Origin: Nitrospirota bacterium
GTDB taxonomy: Bacteria > Nitrospirota > JACRHL01
Direction of reading: 5' to 3'
Assembly (NCBI GenBank): GCA_029858285.1
Contig: JAOUFN010000023.1
Coordinates: 1 to 36,765 of the forward strand
Length of the DNA: 36,765 nucleotides
The notes beneath the pieces are model-generated. The model saw nothing but the letters and a program-made list of their open reading frames with translations. It had not been told where the DNA came from and ran no database searches. The translations under genes were made by a program, and so were the position numbers. Each line of letters begins with the position of its first letter. The stretch's first letter is position 1. Positions 6,239 through 36,331 of this stretch are shown here, piece by piece.

Positions 6239-7263
6239 ACACCCCCCTGCCGTGGCTCCGGCATGGGAATGCGGTCGAACGCCTCCGGGCGGACCATTTC
6301 GATTTGGGTGCGGGTGCCGCCGTCATCCAGAGTATGGGTGACCGAGGTGATGAGCAGGTCGGCCGCCAGCGCCAGTGAGGGCAGGCTCACGCCCACGCGC
6401 GTATTGGGTTGCCACAGGCCGCCCGCGTGGGACCAGCCCGGCACTGTCACACTCACGCGGCGACCGCGCCCGGAGCGCACGTTGCGCTCCCACTCCGCCC
6501 GCACCCGCAGCCCTGCACGGTCCGACGCATCCTCCGCCTGCATCACCAGCGGGCGGTGGCGGCTGATCTCTGTGTCGGTGGCCACTCCCTTGCCTGCGGC
6601 GGCGGCCCCGAAAAGGCCGTCACTGCCCGGCAGCACCCCCACCACGGTGACGGTGGAAAACCGCTCGCGCCAGGTGGCCGCGCCTTCGGCCTCCAACACG
6701 TTTTGCCCCTCCACCAGTTCGGTGGCCACGCGAGTGGTGGTGGCGCGGGTGATGAGCAATCCCCCCGCGCCATCGGCCACCGCCAGCACGCCGCAGATGC
6801 GCGCCAAGCGCTCGATGACCTCCCACACAGTCTCGCCGTGGTCCGCCCTGAATGTGGGCATGACCGGGAGGGTCAATCCCGCCGCCACGGCGACCGGGAC
6901 ACCAAATGGTTTACAGAGCGCCTCGGCGATTTGCCGCATGGTGCGGCTGGGGTACTGTTTATCGGTTACCGAGCAGTCCACCAGGTCGCCTGTAGCGTCA
7001 CGACCGGAGATTTCAATCTCGCGGCTGTCGGCGCGCAGGCGCATGGCCACGTCGTCCACGTGGCCGGTGATGACCGTCTGGCCGTCCATTTGCACGGTGC
7101 AGGCGTCACCGGGGCGGATGTCGCGGCGCACATCCTGCCCCGGCCAGCGGTCCGACACCCCCAAGGAAAACTGTCCCGCCACCTGCTCGATGCCGCGCTG
7201 GATCTGCACGGTTTTCCACCCGCCCCAGCGGGTGCCACCGATGGTGAGGGTGATGTCAGTCAC
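6232..7263 (-). CDS. Baseplate hub protein (Mu gpP/gp44)
   Basis: The 343-aa protein matches the gpD/gp44 tail-hub family (for example WKTVQIQRGIEQVAGQFSL and EIEISGRDATGDLVDCS). It forms the hub that carries the gp45 spike. The GTG at 7263 (VTDITLTIGG) is preferred since family similarity starts there; a start 16 codons earlier lies inside the upstream gene. It overlaps the zinc-finger gene upstream by 8 bp and gp45 downstream by 7 bp. Confidence 0.9.
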   Translation of the reverse strand: MTDITLTIGGTRWGGWKTVQIQRGIEQVAGQFSLGVSDRWPGQDVRRDIRPGDACTVQMDGQTVITGHVDDVAMRLRADSREIEISGRDATGDLVDCSVTDKQYPSRTMRQIAEALCKPFGVPVAVAAGLTLPVMPTFRADHGETVWEVIERLARICGVLAVADGAGGLLITRATTTRVATELVEGQNVLEAEGAATWRERFSTVTVVGVLPGSDGLFGAAAAGKGVATDTEISRHRPLVMQAEDASDRAGLRVRAEWERNVRSGRGRRVSVTVPGWSHAGGLWQPNTRVGVSLPSLALAADLLITSVTHTLDDGGTRTQIEMVRPEAFDRIPMPEPRQGGVW

Positions 7264-7516
7264 AGGACCACCCCACCAGGCGCAGATGGCTGGTTGCCCC
7301 GCAATCGGCAAAATGGCAAATAACGGCGGGGGACACGTGACCCCGGTAGTTCACCCGCCGCCCGAGGCCAATGACCGCCTGGGCGCCGCAGCACGGCAGG
7401 CGGATGATGGCTACGGCGGCGGGGGCGGCGGCGCGCTCGGCGGCGCCCGGTTTGCGCCAGGTGGCGCGGCTGTCCAGCGCCGGATTATGCATCAGGTCGT
7501 GGTAGTCCGTAGTCAT
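7256..7516 (-). CDS. Small Cys-rich protein, Ogr/Delta-like zinc finger
   Basis: I do not recognise a Mu homologue for this 86-aa protein. The second half carries PCCG (C42, C43), then ICHFADCG (C67, C72) and a last C85. The C-x4-C-G followed by a beta-like tail resembles the Ogr/Delta zinc finger of P2-type late activators, although the first Cys of the usual C-x2-C pair is shifted. It starts by ATGA overlap with gp43 and ends inside gp44, so it is a real operon member in a position where Mu has no gene. A regulatory or structural role is possible; function unknown. Confidence 0.75.
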   Translation of the reverse strand: MTTDYHDLMHNPALDSRATWRKPGAAERAAAPAAVAIIRLPCCGAQAVIGLGRRVNYRGHVSPAVICHFADCGATSHLRLVGWSCD

Positions 7517-8706
7517 GCGGCCAGCACCTCCAGCGGCAGCCCACCAGGCACAAAGCCAGGATGCCGGACATGGTTGCGCGCCACCACTTCGGCCTCGCGG
7601 GTGGCGGCGCCATACAATTGGTGGGCGATGACCAGCGCGGGCAGGGTCACGACCGGGGTATGGGTAATCACATCCGGCAGCAGCGCCCCGCGATCCGCCA
7701 GATCGCGGGCCACGGCCACGCGCAAATCGGCCAGCGTGGCATAGGTGTCGTCATCGGCGGTTTCGGCGCGGGCGGTCAGCAGATCCAGCAGGCGGCCGCG
7801 CACCGCCTGGGCGTCGCCCCGGCTGGTAAACGATGTGGCCGCCGCCGCGCTGGCCATGTGGATGGCGGCGGCGGTGGATACCAGCGCGCCCAGCGCCGCC
7901 TGATTGTCCGCCTGCGTCTGGCGGGTGGCGGTGGGAGTGGAGACCGGCGTCAATCCCGCGCCGAAATCGGCCAGCGACTCGGTGAGGGTCAGCGCGTCGG
8001 TGGATCCTGCCGGGGCGGTGGCCGCCGTATCGGATACCACCCCCAGCAGCAAATCCGCCAGCCCCCCGGCATCCGCCAGCAGGTCGCTCATGCGGGTGCG
8101 GGCGTCGGCCAGAGTGGTGGCAAACACGTCCTTATCAGTGGCCTTGGACAGCACCCCCACCAGCGCCTCCATGCGGTCCAGCGCCTTGGTGATAACGGTA
8201 CGGGCCGCGTCGCGCAAAAACTCCGGCTGGCCGGTGGTGCTGAACCCGGCGGCGAATTCCGTCCGCACCGCCGTGAGTGCCCCGCTGGCTGCCGCATCCA
8301 CCAGCGCCGGGGTAAACGCCACGCCCGTGGGCATGGCCAGATCGCCCGCCAGTACGAAGGTCACGGAAAACCGCGCCATGCCCCCCTCGCGGGTGGTCTC
8401 GCTCATCCGCGCCTGGGTGACGGCCACGCGCAGGGTGCCCAACCAAGGGTGAATGAGGGTGCCGGGGCCGGGGGCCTCGATGGCGCCCATCAGGGCATCG
8501 CGCGCGCCCATGTAGTCCGCGCCGATCACCAGCAGGTCGAAGGTGAACTCGCGGGCCTTGCGACCCAGATCCTCAGTGTAGGGCGCGTCGCGCCCCGGAA
8601 ACTCGTGCAGAATAGTGCGGCGGCCGATGGTGGTATCCGCCCCACCCTCGACCCCAAACGGCACGCCCCGGAACGAGCCGGGCTGGAGCTGGTCGCGCCA
8701 GGTCAT
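7513..8706 (-). CDS. DNA circularization/tail protein (Mu gpN, gp43)
   Basis: The 397-aa protein opens with TWRDQLQPGSFRGVPFGVEG, the DNA-circularization N-terminal domain of the gp43 family, and keeps HEFPGRDAPYTEDLGRKARE. In Mu, N is a tail/baseplate protein needed for infectivity. Its upstream neighbour on this strand, the tape-measure gene, is separated from it by a + strand gene, so gp43 must be reached by transcription across about 400 bp. Confidence 0.9.
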   Translation of the reverse strand: MTWRDQLQPGSFRGVPFGVEGGADTTIGRRTILHEFPGRDAPYTEDLGRKAREFTFDLLVIGADYMGARDALMGAIEAPGPGTLIHPWLGTLRVAVTQARMSETTREGGMARFSVTFVLAGDLAMPTGVAFTPALVDAAASGALTAVRTEFAAGFSTTGQPEFLRDAARTVITKALDRMEALVGVLSKATDKDVFATTLADARTRMSDLLADAGGLADLLLGVVSDTAATAPAGSTDALTLTESLADFGAGLTPVSTPTATRQTQADNQAALGALVSTAAAIHMASAAAATSFTSRGDAQAVRGRLLDLLTARAETADDDTYATLADLRVAVARDLADRGALLPDVITHTPVVTLPALVIAHQLYGAATREAEVVARNHVRHPGFVPGGLPLEVLAA

Positions 8707-8723
8707 GCGGCGCCCCGTGGTGC

Positions 8724-8729
8724 TATGCT
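8724..8729 (+). promoter_or_regulatory. Extended -10 promoter of the + strand moron gene
   Basis: TGCTATGCT (8721-8729) is an extended -10 (TGn plus TATGCT). It lies 31 bp before the start codon of the only late-region gene on the + strand. A -35 element is weak at best. It would let the gene be expressed from the prophage independently of Mor. Confidence 0.5.
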
Positions 8730-8760
8730 GGGGGGACCAACAACCGGATGGGAGGTTTCG

Positions 8761-9087
8761 ATGCGCGCTGTTGTTGCCTTTGTAGTCGCCACGTGTTTGT
8801 TACTGATTCCGGTCATATCGCTGGCGGACCGCCAATCCGCGCTGAATGCGGTGCGGACCGAAAAGGGGGTGAGTGGCGCCAGATGGCGCGCAAATAATTT
8901 GCGCGTTTTGGTGCGCGACGACGGCAGCAGCCGAAATGGTTTTGCCGAATATCTGTGCATGCTGGTGATCGACCACACCCCGGAGATGGTTCCACCCCCG
9001 GCCGGACAGTGGCTTTTGGTGACCATCCTGGATGCGGATGACCCAAACCAGACACACCAACTTGGCATGGCCGCTTGCTCGCCGTAA
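8761..9087 (+). CDS. Secreted small protein, lone + strand moron in the tail operon
   Basis: This 108-aa protein is encoded against the direction of all surrounding late genes, between tape measure and gp43. Residues 1-22 form a signal peptide with a hydrophobic core, likely cut after SLA. The mature part (about 86 aa) has two Cys (C66, C106) that could form a disulfide and a beta-rich look. A strong gggagg ribosome site sits 6 bp before the ATG, and an extended -10 lies upstream. It ends 4 bp from the end of the convergent tape-measure gene. No family recognised. Layout is typical of a prophage-expressed moron, perhaps for superinfection exclusion or host fitness; this is inference. Confidence 0.8.
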   Translation: MRAVVAFVVATCLLLIPVISLADRQSALNAVRTEKGVSGARWRANNLRVLVRDDGSSRNGFAEYLCMLVIDHTPEMVPPPAGQWLLVTILDADDPNQTHQLGMAACSP

Positions 9088-9091
9088 CGCA

Positions 9092-10531
9092 TCACCATCC
9101 CCCCATGGCCAGACCGGTGTCCACAGTCAGATCCACCGGGCCGGTGGCGCGCACTTGTTTGACGCGGGGGCGGCCCTCACCATCCACCCGAATGTGGATG
9201 GTGCCACCCACCTGCTGGGTGCGACTGCCCGTTACGGTCCGCGCCGGAGGCGCCAGCGCGGTGGCTCCGGCGGCGCCCAGATGCAGGTTTCCGGCTACCC
9301 CCCTGGCCAGATCCACCACCCGTTTGATTTTGTCCCACAGCGCGGCGAAAAAATCGCTCAGCGGGGACCAATATCTGTAGATGAGGATGGCCGCCCCGGC
9401 GAGGGCGAGGGCCAACCAGCCAATGGGAGTGGTGAGAATAGCTGCCCCCAACTGCAAAAAAGCCAGGGTTAGCCCCCCCAGGGCGACAATCACCTTGGCG
9501 CCGATCAGCACCGTGATGCCCAGCATCAGGTTGCGCCAGCCGCCCACAGCGTGGGACAACCAGTTAATGCCGCGCCCGATCCCCACGATGATGGGCAGTA
9601 GGGCGCGGAACGCCGCCCACGCCTCGCGCAAACCTCCAACGATCTCCTGCCCCCACAAGTTTGCAATGCGTTGCAGATCGCCGTTGCTGGCCATGCGGTC
9701 AATGGTGGCCAGCAGCGTACTCAGCCGGATTTTGAGCCAATCGAACGCACCGGACTGCATGATCAACAGCCGGAATCGGGTCCATTGGTCGGCCAAGTTT
9801 GACATCAGCCCACCCCAGGTGCCGGACATTTTAAGCATGGCGCCACCGAATTTTTCGTTCCAGATGGCCGACAGGGTGGATTCGATCATGGCGCGGCTGT
9901 TGATGTCCGCCATCTTGCGCACCTGTTTCCCGGCCACCGTATATTCATAGGCCACGCGGTTACCGCTCACCCGCGCGCGGATGCCAAACTCTTTCAGTCG
10001 CTCGTTTTCACCTGTAATGGCGTCGGCGATGGCCTCCACCGCCTGCGTCAACGGTTTGCCCATGGCGGCGCTGGTATCACCCAGCGTGCGCAGCAGACCA
10101 TTGGTGGGATCCAGGCCATATGTGCGCAGCATCACAAACGCATTCATGACCTCGCCCAGCTCGTAGGGAGTTTTGGCTGCAAAATTGGATACCCAGTCCA
10201 GCGATTTTTTAGCCTTGTCGGCGCTACCCTCGGTGGTTTCTAGGATAACGCCAAACTTTTCAAATTCTGCGGCCACATCAATGAGATGTCTCTTGATGGC
10301 CCAGCCGACGGCGCCCGCCCCCAGACCGAGACCGGCCAGCCCACGGGATACGCTGGAGATGGATTGCTGCACTTGCCCAAGCTGGCTGCCCACCTGCCCC
10401 AGCGCGCCGGACACGCGGCCCCCCCCGGCGGCATTGCGGATGCCCGCAAGAGCCTGGCTGACGCGCCGCGCCGGACCGGTGACGCGGTCAACCAAATCGA
10501 TGATGACGCTGGTTTTAAGGTCACCCGCCAT
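9092..10531 (-). CDS. Tail tape-measure protein (Mu gp42)
   Basis: The 479-aa protein begins with KTSVIIDLVDRVTGPARRVS, the conserved opening of Mu-type tape measures. It keeps the LGEVMNAFVMLRTYGLDP region and has hydrophobic segments around residues 330-390. It sets tail length and is ejected at infection. It is shorter than Mu gp42 (about 690 aa), suggesting a shorter tail. Its ATG overlaps the end of the frameshifted chaperone extension by 11 bp. Confidence 0.92.
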   Translation of the reverse strand: MAGDLKTSVIIDLVDRVTGPARRVSQALAGIRNAAGGGRVSGALGQVGSQLGQVQQSISSVSRGLAGLGLGAGAVGWAIKRHLIDVAAEFEKFGVILETTEGSADKAKKSLDWVSNFAAKTPYELGEVMNAFVMLRTYGLDPTNGLLRTLGDTSAAMGKPLTQAVEAIADAITGENERLKEFGIRARVSGNRVAYEYTVAGKQVRKMADINSRAMIESTLSAIWNEKFGGAMLKMSGTWGGLMSNLADQWTRFRLLIMQSGAFDWLKIRLSTLLATIDRMASNGDLQRIANLWGQEIVGGLREAWAAFRALLPIIVGIGRGINWLSHAVGGWRNLMLGITVLIGAKVIVALGGLTLAFLQLGAAILTTPIGWLALALAGAAILIYRYWSPLSDFFAALWDKIKRVVDLARGVAGNLHLGAAGATALAPPARTVTGSRTQQVGGTIHIRVDGEGRPRVKQVRATGPVDLTVDTGLAMGGW

Positions 10532-35493: not shown

Positions 35494-35522
35494 CATTAAT
35501 CGGACCAAGTCCTAGGTGTCAA
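35494..35522 (-). promoter_or_regulatory. Early promoter Pe for ner-A-B
   Basis: A perfect -35, TTGACA, reads on the minus strand at 35522-35517. A 17-base spacer is followed by TTAATG at 35499-35494 as -10. The -35 lies in the loop of the operator inverted repeat and both arms overlap promoter elements, which fits repression by the S24 repressor. Confidence 0.75.
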
Positions 35523-35538
35523 GGACTTGGTCCGATTA
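35497..35538. promoter_or_regulatory. Operator: perfect 17-bp inverted repeat
   Basis: TAATCGGACCAAGTCCT (35497-35513) and its exact inverse (35522-35538) are separated by 8 bp. The repeat lies between the divergent repressor and ner genes and covers the early promoter. It is the obvious binding site for the phage repressor or Ner. Confidence 0.85.
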
Positions 35539-35557
35539 TCTGGATTATTTCTTTGTA

Positions 35558-36331
35558 ATGCCAAAAAAACCATCAGATAGCGCCATTAATCCCCAATTTG
35601 CGGAACGGCTGCGGGCGATCGTGGGAACCATGAGCAACGTGGCGTTTGCCCGTCTGGCGAGCGTGTCAGAAAAAATGATCCGAAAATATCTTGCCGGAGA
35701 GAGTAAACCGGGGCTGGAAGCACTGTTGGGGCTGGCATATGCCGGTGGTGTGGAGGCTCAATGGCTGGCCACCGGCGAGGGACCAAAGGAGTTACAGCGG
35801 CCCCCCCGGCAGCCGTTGAGCTTGGCCACACTGAAAGACACCACGTTTGCTGGAGCACTGGACGCATCCATCCGCATCAGCGATCAGGGGCCACCCGAAG
35901 TAATCTGGATTGGGTCTGGCGAGGTGGTGGAAATCCCCGAGTACGGCGTGACCGCCAGCATGGGGCCGGGTGCCGAAAACCATATCGAGGAGGTCGTGGG
36001 CCACTGGGCGCTGCCACCCCGCTACCTGCGCGAGTTGGGCGTGGCCCCGGCGGATGCGTGTGTGATCTCGGCGCGCGGGGATTCGATGGCGGGCACCATC
36101 CACGACGGCGACCGCCTGCTGGTGGACCTCTCCCGGCGCGAGATCGGCGAGGGCATCTACATCATGCGGATCGGCGATACCCTTCTCGCCAAGCGCTTGC
36201 AGCGCAAGGCCGACGGATCAGTGATGATCCGGGGCGACAACCCCGCCTATGGGCAGGAAATAGTGCCCGCCACCGACACCGAAAACCTGATCATCCTTGG
36301 CCGTGTCGTGGCCCGCCTCGGTCGAGTATAG
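35558..36331 (+). CDS. Phage repressor with HTH and S24 peptidase domains
   Basis: The 257-aa protein has an N-terminal HTH (about 24-45, TMSNVAFARLASVSEKMIRK) and a C-terminal LexA-type domain with catalytic S176 (ARGDSMAGTI) and K212 (LLAKRLQ). An Ala-Gly pair at 98-99 in the linker could be a self-cleavage site. It keeps the prophage silent and may respond to DNA damage, unlike the Mu c repressor. The ATG at 35558 is preferred; a GTG at 35516 lies inside the operator. No ribosome site is evident. Confidence 0.92.
   Translation: MPKKPSDSAINPQFAERLRAIVGTMSNVAFARLASVSEKMIRKYLAGESKPGLEALLGLAYAGGVEAQWLATGEGPKELQRPPRQPLSLATLKDTTFAGALDASIRISDQGPPEVIWIGSGEVVEIPEYGVTASMGPGAENHIEEVVGHWALPPRYLRELGVAPADACVISARGDSMAGTIHDGDRLLVDLSRREIGEGIYIMRIGDTLLAKRLQRKADGSVMIRGDNPAYGQEIVPATDTENLIILGRVVARLGRV

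Follow-up and report, generated by a model that had tools for sequence, protein, structure and literature searches.

The locus analysed here raises the question of why a single gene with a predicted export signal faces against the late operon of a phage, directly beside its tape-measure gene. The window, i.e. the whole stretch of 36,765 bp under analysis, is one whole contig of the host assembly and carries a Mu-like phage without host flanks. Based on Pfam/PHROG-type matches, the genes for terminase, portal, protease, major head, sheath, tube, tape-measure protein (TMP), gp43, gp44, baseplate and transposase are all located on the − strand. Since a CI-like repressor is encoded at 35516-36331 on the + strand (phrog_4, E 3e-40), the phage is regarded as temperate. 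The gene in question (8761-9087, +) encodes a 108-aa protein and lies between the convergent TMP gene (9092-10531, −; TMP_3, E 6e-19; phrog_973, E 2e-62) and the divergent gene for gp43/DNA circularisation, a baseplate hub protein (7513-8706, −; DNA_circ_N, E 2e-30; phrog_184, E 2e-93), whose start is 54 bp upstream. An initial sequence-only reading claimed that no other gene within 25 kb of late genes lies on the opposite strand. This is plausible, as 17 of 17 late genes tested against PHROGs in that stretch were found on the − strand. Very probably, the gene is a moron that occupies a cargo slot and encodes an exported product.

The positions given in the sequence-only reading were correct throughout. 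The extended −10 element TGCTATGCT is located at 8721-8729, the Shine-Dalgarno sequence GGGAGG at 8750-8755, 5 nt ahead of the ATG at 8761, and the stop ends at 9087; the ribosome site, the signal peptide and the 4-bp spacing to the convergent TMP end likewise agree with sequence and translation. An open frame arising by chance in GC-rich DNA, where the high GC content keeps this same frame open for 508 codons, is hardly conceivable and is refuted by homology, namely by the match to phrog_7191 (E 6e-13; A2 profile, E 4e-22) with its invariant residues in the family alignment, next to the coding score and the comparison with empty junctions. The codon score of 8761-9087 amounted to +5.2 bits compared to −34 ± 12 in 2000 dinucleotide shuffles, none of which scored as high, and the GC content by codon position (0.63/0.46/0.67) is coding-like. 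An antisense ORF of 131 aa (8703-9098, −), which would fill the junction co-directionally, was judged spurious and ruled out as a true gene, since its codon-position GC (0.50/0.64/0.65) is non-coding and no credible family match above chance was obtained. Altogether, 8761-9087 is a genuine gene. With a GC content of 58.7% compared to 62.6% for TMP and 70.5% for gp43, its base composition differs from that of its neighbours.

The product had been described as unrecognised, which has to be corrected: it belongs to phrog_7191, a family that also includes cellular lipoproteins. The profile match spans residues 20-106, and all invariant columns are present in the window copy. The 33 aligned members share D54, R58, G60, A62, Y64, C66, G102 and C106 (window numbering), the first six of which form the core motif DGSSRNGFAEYLC (residues 54-66, 8920-8958, +), while the second invariant cysteine C106 is encoded at 9076-9078 (+). 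From the alignment, C66 and C106 are probably paired in a disulphide. Nearly all members start with a signal peptide or lipobox, and in the window copy a Sec signal peptide MRAVVAFVVATCLLLIPVISLA (8761-8826, +) is predicted from translation, hydropathy and these relatives, with cleavage after SLA and a following D. As for all export calls in this study, the assignment of the window copy as exported was made by a hydropathy rule and inspection by eye, not by SignalP; the product is expected in the periplasm.

Outside the slot described below, the family was found in the P2-like Mannheimia phage PHL101 (ORF33), where it lies downstream of CI within the CI operon with annotated promoter and terminator, and in the Rhizobium phage RR1-B (RHYG_00018), where it is a lone reversed gene of the early region. 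Both proteins resemble the window copy in family, signal peptide, invariant residues and an orientation opposite to neighbouring late or early genes, but differ in lying outside the slot between TMP and gp43. Among RR1-B-like phage copies, dN/dS values of 0.09-0.21 indicate purifying selection; the nearest relative of the window copy is ~42% identical, and the selection refers to the family level only. In Flavobacterium (L045) and Psychrobacter (L050), the family also includes lipoproteins whose genes have ordinary chromosomal neighbours. Since such cellular members exist, the activity of the domain need not be directed against phages.

A host-resident origin of the gene was rejected: among 396 genomes of the phylum, phrog_7191 occurs in the window's own genome only, which indicates that the gene arrived with the phage. 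The host chromosome also carries a decayed fragment of the family (L002, G000:C20:170701-170820, frame around 1500-1650), in which LADRESALDAVNAETSVDGAI and RQNNLRLIVCDDD are separated by an internal stop. It is 55% identical to residues 17-56; the same genome lacks a second gp43.

The AlphaFold model of the protein (pLDDT 85) comprises an alpha-beta-beta-alpha-beta-beta arrangement after the signal peptide. A fold search against the PDB gave no match at E<0.001; the best resemblances, to FliF ring-building and YhcN domains, reached ~0.7-0.9 probability and were not accepted as identification. Among viral structures the best neighbour was a mycobacteriophage lipoprotein, which is a weak match (E 4e-3, TM about 0.48). 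No sequence relation to a solved structure was found, Pfam showed no match above cut-off for the window copy, and PADLOC and NCBIfam searches over phrog_7191 yielded nothing above noise. PF21903 (BDI_0842) remained below its gathering cut-off (best 24.1 of 27 bits), mainly for Bacteroidota-type members and with no hit in the window copy.

What the reading as a "lone" gene did not capture is that Mu-like phages repeatedly use the same junction as a cargo slot, filled mostly by opposite-strand genes whose products are exported or membrane-bound and belong to unrelated families. Viral contigs were gathered by gp43 similarity only, supplemented by five isolate records and five family-selected loci (L008, L015-L017, L028), and reduced to 148 clusters with <90% gp43 identity and a required long upstream TMP frame; TMP denotes here the long frame upstream of gp43, most contigs being unannotated metagenome sequences. 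In 119 of the 148 junctions the gap between TMP and gp43 was ≤60 bp, and stop and start usually overlap. A gap of >150 bp was determined for 24 of 148. After setting aside L117, a broken TMP, 23 of them carry cargo, which in 18 cases is encoded on the opposite strand. For comparison, the next junction, gp43/gp44, measured ≤60 bp in 134 of 142 cases. Annotated isolates show both states, with a reversed gene in Alteromonadaceae phage B23 and Chromohalobacter phage YPCBV-1 and an empty junction in SfV, YeP1 and PBb001. By BLASTP, the cargo falls into ~15 mostly unrelated families. Two further cargo families were searched separately; one was found in the slot only, reversed, in 5/5 loci, and the other in 4/5, with one contig end unresolved. 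In the open PMC subset, nothing relevant on a TMP/gp43 cargo slot was found.

The cargo is strongly biased towards the envelope. Exported or membrane-bound proteins account for 29 of 30 distinct cargo proteins compared to 13 of 63 small genes of the two baseline phages, B23 and YPCBV-1 (Fisher p 6e-13); counted by family, 14 of 15 are envelope-directed (p 2e-7). A known domain is missing in nearly all of them. One exception is the TM2-domain protein of L237. At L259 (3562-3966, +) the slot carries an exported staphylococcal-nuclease homologue (PF00565, E 1e-9; PADLOC SNc+LTD match, E 1e-9), a candidate periplasmic nuclease acting on incoming DNA. The sole non-envelope cargo seen is a non-exported protein of 128 aa with a weak HEPN match (L217, 3553-3939, +). 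An exported four-cysteine family (VxxYEC...D....SC) recurs in the slot at L144, L061, L134 and L074 and showed no Pfam/PHROG match.

How the gene is expressed can be approached through its upstream region. A plain sigma-70 scan upstream of the gene found nothing, and the −35 region is poor, with no usable −35. The extended −10 at 8721-8729 (+), which the sequence-only reading had proposed, is backed computationally by its conservation across phages as the motif GCTAnnCT, and in this sense the gene has a promoter of its own. The motif is present in 11 of 21 opposite-strand-filled junctions, the window included, compared to 0.24 in shuffles (maximum 3 in 300) and 2 of 119 empty junctions; it was noticed by side-by-side reading and tested on the same loci, so that its absence from 117 of the 119 empty sites serves as the independent control. 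When upstream regions were scored for patterns one by one, the combined signal was only modest (Fisher p 0.001). In most phages the 3' end of the motif, CTCC, doubles as the Shine-Dalgarno sequence of gp43 on the other strand; in the window, the distance of the −10 from gp43 is greater than elsewhere, and an overlapping CTCC is missing. Transcription would start at ~8736.

No terminator was detected after 9087, and the gene is in this respect a variant of the classical moron. The same is observed for reversed cargo in general, which lacks a strong terminator in 18 of 21 cases (window included), whereas co-directional cargo has one in 4 of 5. The late operon is thereby left unbroken by reversed cargo. 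It has been considered that the locus is mainly regulatory, with transcription or antisense RNA over the TMP 3' end or the gp43 start holding the tail genes down in the lysogen, as transcripts could run antisense into TMP where no terminator follows the gene. The residue-level conservation of the protein families under purifying selection and the occurrence of the same families elsewhere in phage genomes make this very improbable.

Members of phrog_7191 are also found co-directionally between TMP and gp43 (L015-L017, L028, L221), where they end in terminators. Since the family occupies the slot in this form as well, the opposite orientation is not essential. An in-place inversion of such a co-directional gene was discarded as origin of the window copy, because a single clade of both was rejected (AU p 0.012, of modest weight in view of long branches). 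As the copies do not form one clade, phrog_7191 probably reached the slot more than once, by independent arrivals. The phrog_7191 copy at L008 (4825-5141, +) shows a one-base deletion compared to L015 and an extra insert of ~600 bp ahead of the gene, and is either a pseudogene or the result of a sequencing error.

A comparison of closely related phages shows how the slot is filled and emptied. Both flanks of L028 and L222 agree at 92-94% identity; in L028 the phrog_7191 gene follows directly after the TMP stop, whereas L222 comprises at the same point 42 bp including a terminator and no cargo. L174/L298 and L176/L181 have a common backbone (80-90%) and promoter with two unrelated cargo proteins, the Shine-Dalgarno sequence and first codons also being common to three of the four. 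Unrelated cargo is likewise swapped between L186 and L187 with the promoter kept, and the cargo of L217 replaces the phrog_7191 gene of its near-twin L017. The content of the slot therefore changes by cassette exchange, with promoter and start often kept. Presence and absence in near-identical phages, as expected for a moron, is thus documented for the family (L028/L222) and for the junction at large, the window copy itself having no near-identical relative. Together with the GC content below that of the neighbours and the promoter element, this agrees with the moron assignment of the sequence-only reading.

These data also bear on the alternative that the product is made late or belongs to the virion, for instance as a helper in tail assembly or lysis, and that its gene lies reversed by happenstance. 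Its position within the tail operon and the co-directional relatives of some phages would fit, but the opposite strand, the signal peptide, the absence from near-identical phages and the location of family members in the CI operon of PHL101 and at an unrelated place in RR1-B leave little credence for this explanation.

Returning to the moron with an exported product, the following course of events is proposed. In a dedicated slot between TMP and gp43 of a contractile-tailed, temperate Mu-like phage, the gene would be read by host RNA polymerase from its own extended −10 promoter. Because of this promoter and the reverse layout, it could be active at a time when the late genes are not; the layout strongly suggests expression in the lysogen, and the gene would be switched off in late infection, when late transcription would run antisense through it. 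The product would be exported, lose its signal peptide and, probably with the one disulphide C66-C106, form a small alpha-beta-beta-alpha-beta-beta domain in the periplasm. In the envelope of the lysogen, it might then block the DNA entry of related phages, whose conduit involves the tape measure, the product of the adjacent gene.

Superinfection exclusion at DNA entry is our best guess for the function, proposed by analogy and at not quite even confidence. It is based on the exported product, the position of the slot beside injection proteins, the lysogeny-operon site in PHL101 and the exported nuclease among the alternative cargoes; the weak HEPN match of L217 and the phage lipoproteins as best, albeit weak, structural neighbours were also counted in its favour. 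A gene of lysogenic conversion that benefits the host through its envelope (stress, surface properties, envelope homeostasis), and not by keeping phages out, has a considerable, though minority, probability. The Flavobacterium and Psychrobacter lipoproteins beside ordinary chromosomal genes point to a cellular role of the domain, and the slot cargo is very diverse and mostly unrecognised. On the other hand, injection proteins are encoded next to the slot, and two of its cargoes are similar to defence proteins that target nucleic acids, although neither point is specific to phrog_7191.

For the preferred reading of exclusion, several known systems offer comparisons. Ltp of TP-J34 is an exclusion lipoprotein expressed by the prophage, which blocks DNA injection and targets the tape measure, and Glo of K139 has been described as a soluble periplasmic exclusion protein (PMC3952083). 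The window gene would resemble them in encoding a small envelope protein expressed by the prophage, as predicted from sequence, but neither shows a sequence relation to phrog_7191 that our searches could detect, and the host of Ltp is Gram-positive. The window copy has neither a normal lipobox nor a Pfam match above cut-off as in the Ltp type, and the fold resemblance to one annotated member is weak (probability 0.85). HK97 gp15 is reported to act at the membrane on injection and to be tied to tape measures (PMC10883804). Lambdoid morons such as this one are similar in being single genes with their own expression signals between tail genes and with a membrane product. They differ in that no sequence relation is established, and that the slot has a recurring promoter element and mostly reversed filling, swaps ~15 families in contractile-tailed Mu-like phages and carries reversed cargo mostly without a classical terminator. 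SNIPE, a membrane-bound nuclease that defends during genome injection, is tied to tape-measure proteins (PMC13190303); the window protein differs in having no nuclease domain, an exported SNase being the cargo of L259. The window protein shows no homology to any tested exclusion protein. Since homology to Ltp, HK97 gp15 and SNIPE is lacking, it may work like these proteins but is not assigned to them.

Accessory single-gene insertions at fixed places are also known as regions of genomic plasticity in Pseudomonas Mu-like phages (PMC4378225). These phages have long flexible siphovirus-type tails, and the sections of that report available to us describe no TMP/gp43 slot, reversed envelope cargo or common promoter.

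For future searches, the odd reversed gene turns into a rule: searching Mu-like prophages in the interval from the tape-measure gene to gp43 should collect single-gene envelope effectors, most of them without known domain. If exclusion at DNA entry holds true, the slot would provide a ready collection of small exclusion proteins, with the tape measure linked to each pointing to its target. A far-reaching version is considered rather unlikely: here the junction of contractile-tailed Mu-like phages would be a promoter-equipped socket for the exchange of at least a dozen unrelated envelope proteins, every one of them directed against superinfection and fitted to the injection machinery on its flanks.

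Two further observations concern the surroundings of the slot. In the window, the unusual gap of 201 bp ahead of gp44 is occupied by an ORF of 86 aa (7256-7516, −), which has a 4-bp overlap with the gp43 stop. Its codon use is coding-like (0.23 bits per codon), and it could be a small extra gene of the tail operon. In L024 and L043, an Aureimonas altamirensis prophage, a reversed phrog_7191 copy is located at the 5' side of the tape-measure gene and not at its 3' side, which makes the 5' side a possible second cargo position.
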